DNA of 64,000 nt, taken from Rhizobium glycinendophyticum (lineage in GTDB: Bacteria; Pseudomonadota; Alphaproteobacteria; Rhizobiales; Rhizobiaceae). The DNA is taken from contig NZ_VFYP01000001.1 in the NCBI RefSeq assembly GCF_006443685.1, positions 2,542,001 through 2,606,000 of the forward strand, given 5' to 3'. The translations under genes and the position numbers were made by a program. Shown in pieces: positions 7,234-40,352 of the stretch (position 1 is the stretch's first letter; the number at the start of each line of letters is the position of its first letter). The notes under the pieces are model-generated. The model saw nothing but the letters and a program-made list of their open reading frames with translations, ran no database searches and was not told the origin of the DNA.

Positions 7234-7262
7234 CTTGAATTGCGGCGCGCTTCAATCCTAAA
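7234..7262 (+). promoter_or_regulatory. Predicted trxB promoter
   Basis: CTTGAA (7234-7239) and CCTAAA (7257-7262) are 17 bp apart. Initiation near 7269 leaves a leader of about 77 nt to the trxB ATG. The -10 is imperfect. Confidence 0.45.
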
Positions 7263-7345
7263 TGGGCCGACCATTGCGGGGAACCCTGCGCCTGCCCATC
7301 TTTGAGGCCTGCACGCCCCCGCTCCGCGACCTGAAAGGAATTGAG

Positions 7346-8323
7346 ATGACCGCCCGCCACACCAAGGTGCTGATCATCGGCTCCGGCCCCGCCGGATACA
7401 CAGCTGCCATTTATGCCGCACGCGCCATGCTGAAGCCGGTCCTGATTGCCGGCATGGAACAGGGTGGCCAGTTGATGATCACCACCGACGTGGAGAATTA
7501 TCCGGGCTTTGCCGATCCTATCCAGGGGCCCTGGCTGATGGAGCAGATGCTCAACCAGGCGATCCATGTCGGGACCGAGATCGTCAGCGACCTCGTGACC
7601 GAAGTCGACACGCTCAACCGCCCCTTCACGGTCAAGACCGACAGTGGCCAGGTCTGGACATCCGATACGCTGATCATCTGCACGGGTGCCAAGGCCAAGT
7701 GGCTCGGTATCGAAAGTGAGCAACATTTTCAGGGCTTTGGCGTCTCGGCTTGCGCCACTTGCGATGGCTTCTTCTATCGCAACAAGGACGTGATTGTCGT
7801 CGGCGGCGGCAATTCGGCTGTCGAGGAAGCGCTTTATCTGTCGCATATCTGCAAGTCGGTGACCGTCGTACATCGCCGTGACAGTTTCCGCTCGGAAAAA
7901 ATCCTGCAGGAGCGCCTGTTCGCCAAAGAGAACATCCGCGTTCTGTGGAACACCACCGTCGAAGAGATCACCGGCGCCCCGGCCAAGCCGCCGATGCCGC
8001 CCTCTGTTTCGGGTGTGAAGCTCAAGGATCAACTGACCGGCGCCATCACGGACATGCCGATCGACGGTGTATTCGTCGCCATCGGCCATGCCCCGGCTGT
8101 CGAACTGTTCAAGGGAAAGCTGAAGCTCAAGTCCAACGGCTATCTGTGGACTGCACCTGATTCGACGGCAACCGACGTGCCGGGCATTTTTGCCGCCGGT
8201 GACGTCACAGACGACGTCTACCGCCAGGCGATCACGGCCGCCGGCATGGGCTGCATGGCAGCGCTCGAGGCAGAGCGTTACCTGACGGCCCTGTCCATTC
8301 CCACTCAGCAAGCGGCGGAGTAG
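7346..8323 (+). CDS. trxB: Thioredoxin-disulfide reductase
   Basis: FAD enzyme that uses NADPH to reduce thioredoxin. The 325-residue product is full length. The FAD dinucleotide motif GSGPAG is at 12-17, the redox-active CATC is at 136-139, the NADPH motif VVGGGNSAVEEAL follows, and the C-terminal FAD motif GIFAAGDVTDDVYRQ is present. ATG 7346 is chosen because it follows AAGGAATTGAG and gives the canonical MTARHTKVLIIG; the frame extends upstream without family features. It is followed after 5-20 bp by lsrB, an arrangement conserved in rhizobia that links thiol redox control with LsrB. Confidence 0.97.
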   Translation: MTARHTKVLIIGSGPAGYTAAIYAARAMLKPVLIAGMEQGGQLMITTDVENYPGFADPIQGPWLMEQMLNQAIHVGTEIVSDLVTEVDTLNRPFTVKTDSGQVWTSDTLIICTGAKAKWLGIESEQHFQGFGVSACATCDGFFYRNKDVIVVGGGNSAVEEALYLSHICKSVTVVHRRDSFRSEKILQERLFAKENIRVLWNTTVEEITGAPAKPPMPPSVSGVKLKDQLTGAITDMPIDGVFVAIGHAPAVELFKGKLKLKSNGYLWTAPDSTATDVPGIFAAGDVTDDVYRQAITAAGMGCMAALEAERYLTALSIPTQQAAE

Positions 8324-8343
8324 AGGCCATGAGAGGGGGCGGC

Positions 8344-9240
8344 ATGCCGCTGGACTGGGACAAACTGCGCATTTTCCACTCTGCTGCGGAAGCGGGCTCC
8401 TTCACCCATGCCGCCGACAAGCTGCATCTGTCCCAGTCGGCGATCAGCCGCCAGGTCTCGTCGCTGGAACAGGATATCGGCGTCAAGCTCTTCCACCGTC
8501 ATGCCCGCGGCCTGATCCTCACCGAACAGGGCGAACTGCTCTATCGCACGGCCCACGACGTTCTTTTGAAGCTGCAGACCGTGAAGATGCAGCTGACCGA
8601 AACGACGGAAAAGCCCTCCGGCAAGCTGCGCGTGACGACCACGGTTGGTCTCGGACAGGGCTGGCTCACAGATAAAGTGCAGGAATTCCTGCAGCTCTAT
8701 CCGGAAATGTCGATCCAGCTCATCCTCGACAACGAGGAACTGGACGTCAACATGCGCCATGCCGACTGCGCCATTCGCCTGCGCCAGCCGCAACAGTCGG
8801 ATCTCATCCAGCGCAAGCTCTTCACCGTGCACATGCACGTCTATGCGGCGCCCTCCTACATCAATCGCTATGGCGAGCCGCAGTCGATCGAGGATCTTGA
8901 CAATCACAAGATCATCTCGTTCGGCGAACCCGCACCCAACTACCTGCTCGACGTCAACTGGCTGGAAACGGCAGGCCGTTCTTCTGACAATGCCAGAATG
9001 CCGCACCTGCAGATCAACAGCCAAACTTCGATCAAGCGAGCCTGCTTGCTAGGCATCGGGATCGCCATGCTGCCGGACTATATCGTCGGCCGTGATCCGG
9101 GACTTTTACAGCTCGCCATCCCGGCAGACATCCCGTCCTTCGATACCTATTTTTGCTACCCCGACGAGATCAAGAACGCAGCAAAGCTCAAGGCATTCAG
9201 AGATTTCATCGTCGCAAAGGCTCGAAACTGGAACTTCTGA
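8344..9240 (+). CDS. lsrB: LysR-type regulator LsrB/VtlR
   Basis: A 298-residue LysR regulator with an N-terminal winged helix (LRIFHSAAEAGSFTHAADKL, then SQSAISRQVSSLEQ) and a C-terminal effector domain. The trxB-LysR-AbcR-ArsR order identifies it as LsrB (S. meliloti) or VtlR (Agrobacterium/Brucella), regulators of oxidative stress, LPS genes and AbcR-type sRNAs. It has three cysteines: C142, C234 and C271. The 92-residue spacing of the first two equals that of C146 and C238 reported for S. meliloti LsrB; the position matching C172 is Ala168 here. ATG 8344 has a good site (AGAGGGGG); ATG 8329 is also possible. Confidence 0.88.
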   Translation: MPLDWDKLRIFHSAAEAGSFTHAADKLHLSQSAISRQVSSLEQDIGVKLFHRHARGLILTEQGELLYRTAHDVLLKLQTVKMQLTETTEKPSGKLRVTTTVGLGQGWLTDKVQEFLQLYPEMSIQLILDNEELDVNMRHADCAIRLRQPQQSDLIQRKLFTVHMHVYAAPSYINRYGEPQSIEDLDNHKIISFGEPAPNYLLDVNWLETAGRSSDNARMPHLQINSQTSIKRACLLGIGIAMLPDYIVGRDPGLLQLAIPADIPSFDTYFCYPDEIKNAAKLKAFRDFIVAKARNWNF

Positions 9241-9332
9241 GGCCTGCCGCCTCAATGAAATAGTATGCCTCGCGCACCGACCTGCGCTCACCGCATGCCT
9301 GACATGCATAAAAAAGCATTGTTCACTGCACA

Positions 9333-9469
9333 AAAAACCACCATATCGCACACAGCTGATGCACATGGTGGCTTTTTCCTCCCAGTTCCACCGCAGCAGC
9401 TGTTCCCCTCTGGAGGTTTTAACCTTCACAATTTAAAGGGCCCTGGTTTTCCAGTGGCCCTCTTTTTTT
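9333..9469 (+). ncRNA. abcR: AbcR (alpha-r15 family) trans-acting small RNA
   Basis: The gap between lsrB and the ArsR gene holds the architecture of AbcR1/AbcR2. A 5' hairpin has arms CCACCAT (9338-9344) and ATGGTGG (9365-9371). The single-stranded anti-Shine-Dalgarno motif CUCCCA lies at 9379-9384, a second pyrimidine motif UUCCCCUCU at 9403-9411, and an intrinsic terminator ends near 9469. In Agrobacterium and S. meliloti the AbcR RNAs lie in this same intergenic region, bind Hfq and repress many ABC-transporter mRNAs. The 5' end (about 9333-9337) is estimated. A weak CTGACA/TTCACT promoter (9299-9304, 9322-9327) precedes it. Only one copy is visible; tandem copies are usual. Confidence 0.82.
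9437..9469 (+). terminator. Rho-independent terminator of the AbcR sRNA
   Basis: AGGGCC then CTGG, loop TTTT, CCAG, a one-base bulge and GGCCCT make a 10-bp stem, followed by C and seven Ts (9463-9469). It is a textbook intrinsic terminator and forms the third hairpin of the sRNA. Confidence 0.9.
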
Positions 9470-9599: not shown

Positions 9600-9893
9600 A
9601 TGTACCTAGAGGACGTGATGAAGGCGCTGGCGCATCCTGCGCGCATGGAAATGTTGATTTGGCTGAAAGAACCCAACCAATATTTTGGTGTTCCAAAGGA
9701 TGAGGCTGGAGAAGGCATCAGCGCCGGGCAGTTTGAACGCTCAGGGCTGTCGCAGTCTGCCGTCTCGGCGCATCTGGCGACCTTGCAGCGGGCAGGCCTA
9801 ATCAGCTCCAAACGCGTTGGCCAGCGGGTCTTGTATCGGCGCGAGGAAGACACCATCAAGGAATTTATCAAGACCTTGAACGGAATGCTCTGA
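9600..9893 (+). CDS. ArsR/SmtB-family transcriptional regulator
   Basis: A 97-residue winged-helix regulator: MKALAHPARMEMLIWL, the recognition helix segment LSQSAVSAHLATLQRAGLI and the wing SKRVGQRVLYRRE. An insert with EAGEGISAGQF before the recognition helix is typical of the ArsR proteins that neighbour oxidoreductases. It lacks the CxC metal motif of ArsR proper, so the effector is probably not a metal. The ATG at 9600 is preceded by GGAGGGG. It lies 62 bp upstream of the Old Yellow Enzyme gene and probably represses it. The gene occupies the position of the regulator that flanks AbcR in other Rhizobiaceae. Confidence 0.88.
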   Translation: MYLEDVMKALAHPARMEMLIWLKEPNQYFGVPKDEAGEGISAGQFERSGLSQSAVSAHLATLQRAGLISSKRVGQRVLYRREEDTIKEFIKTLNGML

Positions 9894-20677: not shown

Positions 20678-20708
20678 TAGCTTCCAGTAACACTGGGAGG
20701 TATCTAAT

Positions 20709-21995
20709 ATGCATAGGATTGCGGTCTTGGGCGCCGGTCTTGGCGGCACCATCATGGCTTACGAACTGCGCGATCGTCTCGGCAAGGAAGCCGAGATCCA
20801 CCTGATCAACAAGGGCGCGACCTATTCCTTCGTTCCCTCCAATCCCTGGGTGGCTGTCGGCTGGAGAGGGCGCGAAGAGATAGAGGTCGACCTACGCCCC
20901 GCCTGCGCCAAGCGCAACATCACGCTTCATCCGCAAGGCGCGCTTCGCCTGCAGGCATCTGAAGGCCGGATCGACATGCTCGACGGCTCCTCTCTTCCTT
21001 ACGACTATCTGGTGATCGCAACCGGGCCCGAACTGGCCTTCGATGAAATCGAGGGGTTCGGGCCACACAGCCATACCCAGTCCGTCTGCCACATCGATCA
21101 TGCGCTTGCAGCCAAGGAAGCGTTCGACAAGCTCGTTGCCAATCCCGGACCGGTCGTCATCGGCGCCGTCCAGGGCGCCTCTTGCTTCGGACCTGCCTAT
21201 GAGTTTGCCTTCATTCTCGACAAGGCACTCCGCGATGCCAAGGTGCGCGACCGCGTGCCGATGACCTTCGTCACGTCAGAACCCTATATCGGTCATCTCG
21301 GCCTGGACGGAGTCGGCGATACCAAAGGCCTTCTCGAAAGCGCGCTTCGCTCCAAGCACATCAAATGGGTCACCAATGCCCGCGTGCAGAGGTTCGATGC
21401 GGACAAGGTGACGGCCGAGGAGATGAATGACGACGGCACGGTGAAGGTCACGCACGAGATCCTGAGCACCTATACGATGATGCTTCCCGCCTTCCGCGGC
21501 GTATCTGCCGTTCGCGACATCGAGGGTCTGACCAATCCGCGTGGCTTCATCCTCGCCGATAAGCACCAGCAGAACCCCACCTTTCCCAACATCTTTTCGG
21601 TCGGCGTCTGCGTCGCCATTCCACCGCTCGGCAAGACACCGGTCCCGGTCGGCGTGCCGAAGACCGGCTTCATGATCGAATCCATGGTGACGGCCACCGC
21701 CCACAACATCGCCGCCCTCATCCATGGTGAAAAACCCGATGCCCAAGGCAGCTGGAACGCCGTCTGCCTCGCCGATTTTGGCGATGGGGGCATCGCTTTC
21801 GTTGCCCAACCGCAATTGCCGCCGCGCAACGTCAACTGGTCGTCGCAGGGCAAATGGGTTCACGCAGCCAAGATCGGCTTTGAAAAATACTTCCTCTACA
21901 AGGTGAAGCTCGGCAAGTCGGAGCCGTTCTACGAGAAACTGGCTCTGCAGGCATTGGGCATCGACAAGCTGAAGGCCGTCACTTTCGATACCTGA
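20709..21995 (+). CDS. Sulfide:quinone oxidoreductase-like FAD protein
   Basis: A 428-residue flavoprotein of the SQR/type II NADH dehydrogenase fold. The FAD motif GAGLGG is at 8-13, VIATGPEL at 103-110, and FSVGVCVAIPPLGKTP near 300 is the C-terminal FAD/quinone region. Cysteines at 127, 159 (in VQGASCFGP) and 301 fit SQR chemistry: C127 and C159 correspond to C128 and C160 of the well-studied enzyme. The third is placed earlier than the classical C356, so the SQR subtype is unsure. It would oxidise sulfide to polysulfide and feed the quinone pool. No BigR/SqrR repressor or persulfide dioxygenase is adjacent. Confidence 0.82.
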   Translation: MHRIAVLGAGLGGTIMAYELRDRLGKEAEIHLINKGATYSFVPSNPWVAVGWRGREEIEVDLRPACAKRNITLHPQGALRLQASEGRIDMLDGSSLPYDYLVIATGPELAFDEIEGFGPHSHTQSVCHIDHALAAKEAFDKLVANPGPVVIGAVQGASCFGPAYEFAFILDKALRDAKVRDRVPMTFVTSEPYIGHLGLDGVGDTKGLLESALRSKHIKWVTNARVQRFDADKVTAEEMNDDGTVKVTHEILSTYTMMLPAFRGVSAVRDIEGLTNPRGFILADKHQQNPTFPNIFSVGVCVAIPPLGKTPVPVGVPKTGFMIESMVTATAHNIAALIHGEKPDAQGSWNAVCLADFGDGGIAFVAQPQLPPRNVNWSSQGKWVHAAKIGFEKYFLYKVKLGKSEPFYEKLALQALGIDKLKAVTFDT

Positions 21996-37045: not shown

Positions 37046-37423
37046 TCACGCACCCGGCAGCGGACAGGCCACGCCGCCACCGAACAAGCGCGACCGCGTT
37101 AGGAACCGCCGCTCCCGCCCATTGTCGAGCGAAAACATCCCGCCCCTGCCCGGCACTACGTCGATGATCAGTTGCGTATGCGCCCAGACGGCATACTGGC
37201 TGCCGCTGATATAGAACGGCACGCCGCCGATCTCCCCGAGCTTCACATCCGTCTCCCCCACCCGGTAGTCGCTCGCCGGATAACACATCGGCGAAGACCC
37301 GTCGCAGCATCCGCCGGACTGATGGAAGAGTATCTCGGGGTGATCCCGTTTGATTTCGGCGAGAAACGCGAGTGCGGCTTCGGTCGCGATGACGCGGGGT
37401 TCCGCGGTGTCTGTATTCATCAA
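37046..37423 (-). CDS. DUF779 family protein
   Basis: A 125-residue protein of the DUF779 family: LFHQSGGCCDGSSPMCYPAS (three cysteines, likely a metal or redox site), YRVGETDVKLGEIGGVPFYI and WAHTQLIIDVVPGRGG, FSLDNGRERRFLTRSR. DUF779 genes are repeatedly found beside ExaC/AldA-type aldehyde dehydrogenases with an AcoR-like regulator, exactly as here. The role is unknown; a chaperone or metal-binding partner of the dehydrogenase is conceivable. The start is ATG 37423 or 37420. Confidence 0.85.
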   Translation of the reverse strand: MMNTDTAEPRVIATEAALAFLAEIKRDHPEILFHQSGGCCDGSSPMCYPASDYRVGETDVKLGEIGGVPFYISGSQYAVWAHTQLIIDVVPGRGGMFSLDNGRERRFLTRSRLFGGGVACPLPGA

Positions 37424-37442
37424 GCTTCCTCCAGCAGGCCCG

Positions 37443-37588
37443 CTAAATCTGTCGAGGTTCGTGGCTGGAGGAGGCGAAAACGGTCATGTTCGAGAACCGG
37501 AGCGGAGCGTACTTGACGTACGTGAGCACCGGAAGCGCAGGACATGAGCGTTTGCAGCCCCTCCAGACACGAAGATCGGCGGATTTAG
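37443..37588. repeat. 146-bp imperfect palindrome (RIME-like intergenic element)
   Basis: CTAAATC (37443-37449) and GATTTAG (37582-37588) bound a nested imperfect inverted repeat. Further inside, CTGGAGG pairs with CCTCCAG, and the AAACGGTCATG-type arm pairs with CATGAGCGTTT, leaving a CGTAC-rich centre. Rhizobial genomes carry mosaic palindromic repeats (RIME type) of this size; identity with a named family is not proven. The right end overlaps the aldehyde dehydrogenase stop codon (37585-37587), so it could end or protect that transcript. Confidence 0.6.
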
Positions 37589-39099
37589 AAGAAGCCGAGC
37601 GCCTTCGGGCTGTAGCTAACCAGCATGTTCTTCGTCTGCTGGTAATGGTCGAGCATCATCTTGTGCGTTTCGCGACCGATGCCCGACTGCTTGTAACCGC
37701 CGAAAGCCGCATGGGCCGGATAGGCGTGGTAGCAATTCGTCCAAACGCGCCCGGCCTGGATATTGCGGCCGAAGTTGTAGCAGGTATTGGCATCGCGGCT
37801 CCACACGCCGGCACCCAGGCCATAAAGCGTGTCATTGGCGATTTCCAGCGCTTCCGCCTCGTTCTTGAAGGTCGTGACAGAAACGACCGGCCCAAAGATC
37901 TCCTCCTGGAATACCCGCATCTTGTTATGCCCCCGGAACACCGTCGGCTTAACATAATAGCCGCCGGCCAGATCGCCCGAGAGCATGTTGCGCTCGCCGC
38001 CGATCAGCACCTCGGCACCTTCCTGGCGACCGATATCCATGTAGGACAGAATCTTTTCCAGCTGCTCGGAGGAGGCCTGCGCGCCGATCATGGTCGTCAT
38101 GTCGAGCGGGTCACCCTGCTTGATCGCGGCAACACGCTTCAGCGCCTTTTCCATGAAGCGGTCGTAGATCTTCTCATGCACCAGCGCGCGGCTCGGGCAG
38201 GTGCAGACTTCGCCCTGGTTGAGCGCGAACATCGCAAACCCCTCGAGCGCCTTGTCCAGATAATCATCGTCCTCTCGCATGACATCTTCAAAGAAGATGT
38301 TCGGCGACTTGCCACCCAGTTCCAGCGTTACCGGGATCAAGTTCTGGCTGGCATATTGCATGATCAGCCGACCAGTCGACGTCTCGCCGGTAAAGGCAAT
38401 CTTGGCGATACGCGGGCTGGTGGCCAGCGGCTTGCCGGCTTCGAGGCCAAACCCGTTGACGATGTTGAGCACGCCCGCCGGAAGAAGGTCTGCGATCAGC
38501 TCTGCGAGAACCAGGATCGAGGCTGGTGTCTGTTCGGCTGGCTTCAGCACCACGCAATTGCCGGCGGCCAGTGCTGGCGCCACCTTCCAGGCGGCCATCA
38601 GGATCGGGAAATTCCACGGAATGATCTGGCCGACGACGCCGAGCGGCTCGTGGAAGTGATAGGCGATCGTGTCGTGGTCGACTTCGCCAATCGAGCCTTC
38701 CTGGGCACGAATGCAGGCGGCGAAATAACGGAAGTGGTCGATGGCGAGCGGAATGTCGGCCGCCATGGTCTCGCGCAGCGGCTTGCCGTTGTCCCAGGTT
38801 TCAGCCCGCGCCAGGAGTTCGAGATTGTCCTCCATGCGCTGCGCAACCTTCATCAGGATGTTCGAGCGCTCGGTGGTCGAGGTGCGGCCCCACTTGTCCT
38901 TGGCGGCATGGGCGGCATCGAGAGCAAGATTGATGTCATGCTCATCGGAACGTGCCACGTCGCATAGCTTGCCGCCGGTAACGGGCGTGGTGTTCTCGAA
39001 ATAGCGACCATTGACCGGCTCGCGCCATTGGCCGCCGATGAAATTGCCATATCTCAGCTTGTATGGCGATGCGGCAATCGTCTGGACCTGAATGTTCAT
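37585..39099 (-). CDS. NAD-dependent aldehyde dehydrogenase (ExaC/AldA-like)
   Basis: A 504-residue ALDH superfamily enzyme oxidising aldehydes to acids. The catalytic Glu260 lies in [14 protein letters not shown] and the nucleophilic cysteine in [11 protein letters not shown] (Cys299/Cys301); the Rossmann motif is [12 protein letters not shown]. Length and the start [20 protein letters not shown] match the acetaldehyde/ethanol-linked ExaC branch. The gene lies downstream of a GAF-Fis regulator and upstream of DUF779 on the same strand. A GGAACCC (39123-39129) / GGGTTCC (39136-39142) inverted repeat lies just before its start and may be regulatory. Confidence 0.92.
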
Positions 39100-39239
39100 G
39101 GCATTATCCTCCCTTTAGGACAGGAACCCCTCCTCGGGTTCCAATGGGAAGATGATCATCCGCTTCTGCTGCCATGAGAAGCCGCCCGAAACCGTACTGC
39201 ATTGCACTGTGTTTCAGGAATGCGACAGTGCCGGCAGGC

Positions 39240-40196
39240 CTATTGGATCTGAAATCGCTTCAGCTTGCGATGCAAGGTCGCGCGGCTGATGCCCAGCATC
39301 TGCGCGGCGAGCGAGACATTGCCCTGCGCCCGCGACAGCACCCGGCGGATGGCTGCCCGCTCCGCATCCTCCAGATCGCCGCTCGGCTCCCCGCGCGTTT
39401 CGCGAAGCGCATCCGCTGCCGGCAGGCCTTGTGCAATCATCTGGTCGTCGATCTTGAGTGCCACCCGGGCTGCCCTGGTGGCACCGAGAATGATATCGTC
39501 GCCATCGACTGCAACCAGAGCGGCAATCGTGTTCACCTGTGGCACGACGACAATGCGCGCACCGGCATAGGCGCTTCGGAACAGATTGCATTCGACGCGT
39601 GCGGCCGCATCCCGAACAGCCTGCGAAAGGACAGCGAGCGTCATATCATTGACATCGTTGCGGCATGTGGAAACGTCCAGCGCCGCCGTCACCCGGCCGA
39701 GATGGTCGCGGATTGGCGCCGTGGCGCAGGAGAGCCCGATATTGGCACTCATGAAATGTTGGTCGCGGTGGATGATGACGGCCCGCTCGTCGGCAAGCGC
39801 CGTACCGATCCCATTGGTGCCGGCGCTCGCCTCGCTCCAGACATTCTGCTGCCAGAGCCCGAGCCGGTGAAAATCGGAATCGTCGCCGGGCGCCCCACGC
39901 CGGTCCACAACGATGCCCTCGGCATCGGCAAGCACGATGCAGCAGCCCGAACGGCCAATCATCTGGTACAGCCGGTCGACCTCATCGGTCGCATTGCCGA
40001 TCAGCCGTTCCATCTTCTGTCGAGCTTCTCGAAAGCGGGCCTCTTCGACCTGCACCGGCTTGGCGCCGGCCTCCGGCTGAAGGCGATAGAGATTGAGGCA
40101 GCGGCTCCACGAGGCGGCAACCGGCGACATCACGGCGGCAGACGCCTGGCGTGCCGTCGAATAGACCAGGTCCGAATGGCTGAGTTCCTGCGGCAT
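39240..40196 (-). CDS. GAF-Fis regulator (AcoR-like, without AAA+ domain)
   Basis: A 318-residue regulator: N-terminal segment and GAF domain (about 20-180, with GRSGCCIVLADAEGIVVDRR and SAGTNGIGTALADERAVIIH, the AcoR signature) and a C-terminal Fis-type helix-turn-helix (AAIRRVLSRAQGNVSLAAQM, LGISRATLHRKLKR). The central sigma-54-interacting AAA+ domain of AcoR is missing, so it should work at sigma-70 promoters. ATG 40196 (MPQELSHSDL) is the likely start; an open frame to 40298 adds 34 unrelated residues. It probably controls the aldehyde dehydrogenase/DUF779 genes. Confidence 0.85.
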   Translation of the reverse strand: MPQELSHSDLVYSTARQASAAVMSPVAASWSRCLNLYRLQPEAGAKPVQVEEARFREARQKMERLIGNATDEVDRLYQMIGRSGCCIVLADAEGIVVDRRGAPGDDSDFHRLGLWQQNVWSEASAGTNGIGTALADERAVIIHRDQHFMSANIGLSCATAPIRDHLGRVTAALDVSTCRNDVNDMTLAVLSQAVRDAAARVECNLFRSAYAGARIVVVPQVNTIAALVAVDGDDIILGATRAARVALKIDDQMIAQGLPAADALRETRGEPSGDLEDAERAAIRRVLSRAQGNVSLAAQMLGISRATLHRKLKRFQIQ

Positions 40197-40352
40197 CGGC
40201 TCCTCCCAAAGCGCGTCGCGTAAGTATGCGCCTTCCGCACGCGCATGCAATCCGTACAAGCCTGTGGCAATTGGTACCCGTGTGATTTCGCCTGACACGA
40301 GTGTCGCAGATTTGCGACACGGCCAATCGCCCCCCCTTCATGCCCGACAAAC

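Follow-up and report, generated by a model that had tools for sequence, protein, structure and literature searches.

A predicted AbcR1-type sRNA gene behind lsrB in Rhizobium glycinendophyticum, and copies with the same candidate LsrB box on other replicons

The functional steps of AbcR regulation, among them base-pairing repression of ABC-transporter mRNAs, have been described in Agrobacterium tumefaciens, Sinorhizobium meliloti, and Brucella (PMC7486931, PMC8844928, PMC10746234, PMC3712013, PMC5461406, PMC7143759, PMC4211561), and statements taken from these papers refer to the accessible parts of their texts. AbcR1 was abolished upon vtlR loss in A. tumefaciens (PMC7486931), and LsrB was needed for AbcR1 in S. 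meliloti 2011 (PMC8844928). In S. meliloti 1021, no effect of lsrB on AbcR1 or AbcR2 was reported (PMC7486931). The statement in the original prediction that LsrB/VtlR is a published activator of AbcR-type RNAs is supported by the results in A. tumefaciens and S. meliloti 2011 but not by those in S. meliloti 1021 (PMC7486931, PMC8844928). The published LsrB/VtlR consensus is GCAT-N3-TG-N3-T, and EMSA and reporter data for this box exist in two species (PMC8844928, PMC7486931). In S. meliloti, the abcR1 promoter carries the consensus at -61 to -49 and has the core spacing CTTGAC-N17-CTATAT, whereas the abcR2 promoter is of the RpoH1 type instead, and no further conserved motif was noted in it (PMC8844928). 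The motifs M1 (CUCCCA) and M2 (GUUCCC) were studied in Brucella (PMC5461406). An A/U-rich stretch after the second hairpin is of the kind described as a preferred Hfq site in the ar15 family (PMC3712013), and the same source describes ar15 genes as always multicopy in Rhizobiaceae and Brucellaceae genomes (PMC3712013).

The window, the whole 64-kb stretch of DNA that was analysed, contains the gene order trxB-lsrB-abcR-arsR. The features of this locus are as follows.

7346..8323, + strand: trxB, thioredoxin-disulfide reductase (TIGR01292, 405.3 bits, cut-off 343.45, scanned from 7352)
8344..9240, + strand: lsrB/vtlR, LysR-type regulator (PF00126, PF03466)
9293..9305, + strand: predicted LsrB/VtlR box GCATGCCTGACAT, -61 to -49 from 9354, exact match to GCAT-N3-TG-N3-T
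9318..9346, + strand: probable sigma70 promoter read from the sequence, -35 ATTGTT at 9318-9323, -10 CCATAT at 9341-9346, spacer 17
9354..9469, + strand: predicted abcR1 (ar15) sRNA (RF02345 at 9354-9466), with putative ends
9354..9401, + strand: predicted hairpin 1, CTCCCA (M1/aSD1) in the loop at 9379-9384 (fold, Rfam consensus)
9402..9410, + strand: predicted single-stranded link, GTTCCC (M2) at 9402-9407 (fold)
9411..9428, + strand: predicted hairpin 2 (fold)
9429..9436, + strand: A/U-rich stretch after hairpin 2 (sequence, fold)
9437..9469, + strand: predicted intrinsic terminator, hairpin 9437-9461 and U-tract 9463-9469 (fold, Rfam structure line, sequence)
9600..9893, + strand: ArsR-family regulator gene, at which the conserved locus ends on the right (NF033788, 57.5 bits, cut-off 55; PF01022)

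The LysR-type gene was identified as lsrB because its synteny, trxB-lsrB-abcR-arsR, matches the gene order published for A. tumefaciens and S. meliloti. The LsrB protein of the window was 100% identical over 298 residues to a protein of Rhizobium sp. Root274, and the best 80 of 579 confirmed LsrB relatives, all in named genome records, displayed 92-100% identity. For trxB, the start is probably the internal ATG before TARHTK, within ORF 7262-8323. The sRNA had been predicted directly behind lsrB, and it was found there, between the LysR and ArsR genes with trxB upstream; the RNA start lies 113 bases past the lsrB stop codon on the same strand.

The assignment to the AbcR (alpha-r15) family was confirmed when the Rfam covariance model was run on the lsrB-arsR region. 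RF02345 (ar15, AbcR family) matched 9354-9466 (+) with 120.8 bits (E 5.1e-25), compared to a gathering score of 40 bits, and the match covered the full model (1-112 of 112). It was the sole Rfam family listed above threshold across the window. The predicted fold exhibited the three hairpins of the ar15 family, the last of which is a rho-independent terminator, at -40.9 kcal/mol (z = -3.4), and 0 of 200 shuffles were equally stable. CUCCCA and GUUCCC were both unpaired in the MFE fold. All elements that had been named in advance were therefore present in the sequence and its predicted fold, namely CUCCCA, TTCCCCTCT (9403-9411, overlapping M2), the 5' hairpin, and the terminator. The word CTCCCA alone is uninformative, since it occurred 12 times in the window versus 36.5 expected. 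The 5' end was set at about 9354 because the model start agrees with the box-to-start distance published for S. meliloti. The earlier start at 9333 was given up, as it falls inside the promoter. The 3' end probably lies at about 9466-9469, in the U-tract.

The window copy was classified as AbcR1 type because the consensus box stands at -61 to -49, as in the S. meliloti abcR1 promoter. The conserved island at this box runs on to about 9311. The box word itself is loose, with 693 exact matches genome-wide (338 + 355; the reversed control pattern gave 48 + 51), so that only its position and conservation carry weight. The extended box GCATNNNTGNNNTGCANAA occurred four times in the genome, at three ar15 copies and once inside a coding frame (cheB by eye), and this count is given little statistical weight because the extension was derived from those same promoters. 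A spaced pattern of the box, 47-49 bases, and AGYTGATGC was found in 58 of 297 family genomes and in none of the other 239; the reversed control matched once, and at least one match (G188) looks like chance by eye. The predicted RNA is an ordinary AbcR1-type member of the known ar15 family, whose small RNAs adjust the uptake of nutrients in rhizobia.

The sRNA had also been described as single-copy. One ar15 copy was found between lsrB and arsR, and at E <= 1 no further match at this place was listed when the whole genome was searched with the ar15 model, so the second ar15 gene before arsR that marks an AbcR1/AbcR2 tandem pair is missing from this locus. For the genome, the description failed: the search for a second copy returned two more, and 'single copy' is limited to the locus because these sit on other contigs. 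Three ar15 copies scored above the cut-off, the window copy, C4:217404-217513, and C6:142243-142352, and a fourth candidate remained below it at 19.5 bits. The box at -61 precedes all three. The proposal that LsrB and the sRNA form a compact module agrees with the covariance model, the synteny, and the box at its published position, but the module is not closed, because the box recurs at an equal distance before the C4 and C6 copies.

On both C4 and C6, the copy is flanked by the end of a 1,696-aa gene on one side and by a ParB_N gene of a plasmid-type backbone on the other. The C4 protein gave SNF2, ResIII, and Helicase_C matches that are weak but exceed the respective cut-offs, and the last 450 residues of the C6 protein were 91% identical to its C4 counterpart. 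The downstream genes encode DUF1419 and DUF3991-Toprim proteins on C4 and an ArdC antirestriction protein on C6. A repC gene was found on C6 and none on C4. At least one of the two contigs is, judging by this repC, a plasmid; C4, which has no repC, is taken for one from its gene content alone. The two boxes share bases with the TAG codon that ends the helicase-like gene, and part of their conservation could therefore come from that codon, but this overlap cannot explain the box in copies of other contexts.

Copies away from lsrB were then counted in 63 same-genus genomes. The ar15 model matched in 62 of the 63, with 128 matches in all under stricter filters that may lose weak matches. Each of the 62 ar15-carrying genomes contains exactly one lsrB (E <= 1e-150), by eye no more than about 1 kb away from an ar15 match, and ar15 pairs less than 1 kb apart were read from the coordinates in 19 genomes. 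Subtraction (128 - 62 - 19) leaves 47 ar15 copies away from lsrB. The stretches fetched around the 47 showed no lsrB in any case, and the end of a helicase-like gene lies just upstream of 17. The exact box stood at -61 in 37 of the 47, with one mismatch in two (by eye), and was missing in eight; the RNA starts of these copies were placed partly by a script rule, and in L158 the box lies at -61 with the Infernal start. The eight boxless copies show, by eye, CCCAT- or CCCATAT-type promoters like AbcR2, and AbcR2 of the RpoH type seems to have been dispersed as well. Boxless off-locus ar15 copies with CCCAT(AT)-type promoters by eye are L129, L133, L138, L141, L151, L155, L156, L157, and L243. 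In 21 of the 63 genomes, including G003 and G049 (given as single-contig), there was one ar15 match in all.

Plasmid-borne ar15 genes have been predicted before (PMC3712013, Fig. S1 legend, after del Val 2012). Sequence similar to the C4 copy was found in 385 of 72,556 plasmid records, 271 of which were typed conjugative. These numbers overstate small mobile plasmids, because megaplasmids, at least one 4.6-Mb record (H49), and one lsrB-locus record were counted. Sixteen records were inspected: one is the lsrB locus, which came from a search with the window copy itself, and one lacks a recognisable core motif. Among the other 14, the exact box stood at -61 in ten (hosts Rhizobium, Agrobacterium, Sinorhizobium, Shinella, Ensifer, and Allorhizobium), had one mismatch in three (R. 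etli p42a, Ochrobactrum, and Phyllobacterium), and was missing in one (Labrenzia). One of the plasmids with an ar15 copy is pRtrCIAT899a of R. tropici CIAT 899. An LsrB box at one fixed distance, common to plasmid ar15 copies, was not found in the accessible parts of the literature searched. One record labelled as a plasmid, L234 (NZ_CP022567.1 pSK03), carries trxB-vtlR-abcR-arsR and is either a misnamed replicon or a real transfer. In a phage collection, one ar15-like match (83% over 80 bases) was observed in an unannotated record from faecal samples.

The upstream regions of 117 copies were compared, 81 from lsrB loci, 16 from the helicase-side position, and 20 from other off-locus positions. 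Between -110 and -1, the exact box was found in 100 instances, every one of them at -61, in 66/81, 15/16, and 19/20 copies of the three classes, respectively. The island from -61 to -44 had a mean conservation of 1.53-1.81 bits, compared to 0.36-0.73 bits from -110 to -62. The core promoter from -43 to -1 was partly conserved as well, at 1.07-1.46 bits.

For the plasmid copies, any role is deduced from these patterns. They may be passive duplicates that plasmids carry without a role of their own, a reading to which we give somewhat less than an even chance. Chance capture requires no function, eight of the 47 same-genus off-locus copies have no box, 21 of the 63 genomes show one ar15 match only, and coding at the helicase-like stop codon could hold part of the C4/C6 box. 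However, many replicons retain a recognisable box, promoter island, and pair of C-rich motifs despite diverged DNA above the box, and the site behind the same helicase-like gene recurs in 17 of the 47. A more speculative proposal, which we regard as possible but rather unlikely, is that in rhizobia and agrobacteria, conjugative plasmids have an AbcR1 of their own in the backbone, with a promoter adapted to the chromosomal LsrB of the recipient, so that the redox-sensing LsrB of the host turns on a plasmid RNA that lowers host nutrient uptake. According to the accessible part of a review, the GABA-binding protein of A. tumefaciens is repressed by AbcR1, and a drop in GABA has been proposed to protect the quorum signal behind the conjugation of the Ti plasmid (PMC4231840). 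By analogy, a plasmid AbcR1 copy would push the host in the same way, and a hypothetical benefit would come via GABA uptake and quorum signalling.

For the window locus, the analysis established the RNA family, predicted structure, motifs, and synteny, placed the box at the conserved distance, and detected hfq in the genome (108.2 bits). We consider it highly probable that 9354-9469 is an AbcR1-type sRNA that is activated by LsrB via 9293-9305, held by Hfq, and represses ABC uptake mRNAs. LsrB from the adjoining upstream gene would bind 9293-9305 and activate the sigma70 promoter, and the abcR1 transcript would end at its own terminator and be held by Hfq. Through CUCCCA in the loop of hairpin 1 and GUUCCC in the link to hairpin 2, the RNA would pair with the ribosome-binding sites of ABC-uptake mRNAs, and this pairing would shut the uptake systems down and lower uptake. 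Transcription, LsrB activation, Hfq binding, and targets in this organism are presumed from relatives. LsrB would drive three AbcR1-type RNAs at once, because the C4 and C6 copies carry the same box.

It is unlikely, though less so than the two readings that follow, that the RNA is made while LsrB is not its activator and the neighbourhood and box are inherited without use. Such a reading would fit the contradictory result in S. meliloti 1021 (PMC7486931, accessible part), and box conservation is not absolute, since 15 of the 80 first copies at the named relatives' lsrB loci lack the exact box. Against it, the box is a conserved island under diverged DNA, in three classes of site and at one fixed distance, and the published EMSA and reporter data come from two species.

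Activation of an AbcR1-type RNA by LsrB was further considered against the copies at the lsrB loci of relatives. In the 80 named loci (L009-L088), which are the best 80 of 579 confirmed relatives, an ar15 gene follows lsrB in 80/80, with one copy in 22 and two copies in 58. The exact box stood at -61 in 65/80 first copies and in 17/58 second copies, leaving 41 second copies without it. Two kinds of second copy can be distinguished at these loci from score and promoter sequence. Forty of the 58 scored 53.6-86.6 bits, none of them has the box, and CCCATAT occurs within the last 30 bases before the start in 23 of these 40. The other 18 scored above 100 bits, 17 of them with the box, so that score alone does not separate AbcR1 from AbcR2. 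The possibility that the window RNA is the stress-type, RpoH1-driven AbcR2, with AbcR1 lost, would explain why one copy is left where 58 of the 80 relatives keep two. We judge it very improbable, as the window copy has the LsrB box at -61 and scores 120.8 bits, versus 53.6-86.6 bits in the 40 boxless second copies. Processing of the RNA from the 3' end of the lsrB mRNA, with no promoter of its own, would suit its position on the same strand 113 bases past the lsrB stop but is hardly credible beside the promoter elements, the box at its published distance, and the off-locus copies that keep box and RNA with no lsrB in the fetched stretch.

Among 29 further lsrB loci of the family, mostly from other genera, 0 to 4 ar15 matches were found per fetched stretch. 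One match was present in nine of the 29, including L225 and L227, where ar15 lies about 800 and 1,100 bases from lsrB. In the 24 loci scored for the box, which leave out the most distant ones (L225-L229), it stood at -61 or -62 in 20/24 first copies and 5/22 further copies. In L203, L204, L223, and L226, lsrB is followed by three or four consecutive ar15 matches. A single copy at lsrB is not an oddity.

Two trees were compared with these copy numbers. The first contains 81 rows, made up of the window, one outgroup, and 79 named loci, the 80th (L016) having been dropped because it has no upstream DNA. Single and tandem loci fell on the two sides of one branch with support of 100/99, and the outgroup does not root this tree because its branch exceeds 5 changes per column. 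The second contains 110 lsrB genes (80 named, 29 others, and the window) with ar15 numbers from 0 to 4. There, the label 'single' needs six changes, five of them forced by well-supported branches, and the single-copy clade of the window (23 rows) adjoins two two-copy loci with modest support (80/89). The abcR2 gene was likely lost in this clade.

Both C-rich motifs were also scanned for pairing against the starts of 65 unannotated frames in the window, a scan that favours any strong Shine-Dalgarno and is uninformative about ABC transporters. The lsrB start region ranked second in the duplex-energy list of the 65 frames, and AGAGGGG, located ahead of this start at 8332-8338 (+), is a seven-base complement of the AbcR1 motif that comes second of the two C-rich ones. 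Feedback of AbcR1 on lsrB was dropped as a candidate because AGAGGGG is present in only 17 of the 80 loci and the energy was hardly better than that of shuffled sequences (median -14.3 versus -13.4). At 37049-40298 (-), DUF779-like, aldehyde-dehydrogenase-like, and AcoR-like frames (by eye) have Shine-Dalgarno sequences complementary to CUCCC, and these frames could be AbcR targets or chance. At 20694-20711 (+), the start of a 428-aa oxidoreductase-like frame (by eye) is closely preceded by TGGGAGG, which is complementary over seven bases to the motif in the first loop.

The window locus holds an already known regulator-sRNA pair, and its clade has the simpler, one-copy form of the locus, which makes it handy for studying AbcR1 without AbcR2 beside it. 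The wider pattern of mobile AbcR1 copies that keep an LsrB site at a fixed distance would mean that plasmids tap a redox regulator of the host and adjust host metabolism. It also implies that AbcR dosage varies between strains with the plasmids carried, a point to bear in mind before a mutant in chromosomal abcR is taken to be AbcR-free.

Compared to known systems, the AbcR1 RNAs of A. tumefaciens C58 and S. meliloti belong to the same family as the window RNA and share its lsrB/vtlR site, the GCAT-N3-TG-N3-T box, and the C-rich motifs, and in S. meliloti the box-to-start distance is equal as well. Both species have abcR2 in tandem, according to the accessible descriptions, whereas the window locus has the AbcR1-type gene only and two boxed copies elsewhere. 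AbcR2 of these species is a homologous RNA in the same intergenic region and is absent at the window locus. Brucella abortus AbcR1 and AbcR2 have M1 CUCCCA and M2 GUUCCC in common with the window RNA, and they too are spread over different chromosomes, with VtlR dependence of one. By the accessible accounts, only that one of the two B. abortus sRNAs is VtlR-dependent, while here a predicted box precedes all three copies. NfeR1 (ar14) is LsrB-activated in S. meliloti, like AbcR1, but has three aSD hairpins. A search with RF02344 gave four ar14 (NfeR1-like) copies in the genome, L001-L004, on C1 and C6 (one on C6). In L004 and L003 (C6), the box was matched exactly, at positions -93 and -95 relative to the model start, and in the other two with one mismatch only, at -57 and -88. 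The rule that ar15 genes are always multiple differs from the one match in 21 of 63 same-genus genomes, where filters may lose weak matches (PMC3712013). The ar15 genes predicted in that paper are likewise plasmid-borne, and LsrB boxes at plasmid copies are not treated in its accessible part (PMC3712013). The window RNA and the plasmid ar15 copies are of already known kinds, and an LsrB box shared by the plasmid copies, often in a recurrent place of the conjugative backbone, did not turn up in the accessible literature.
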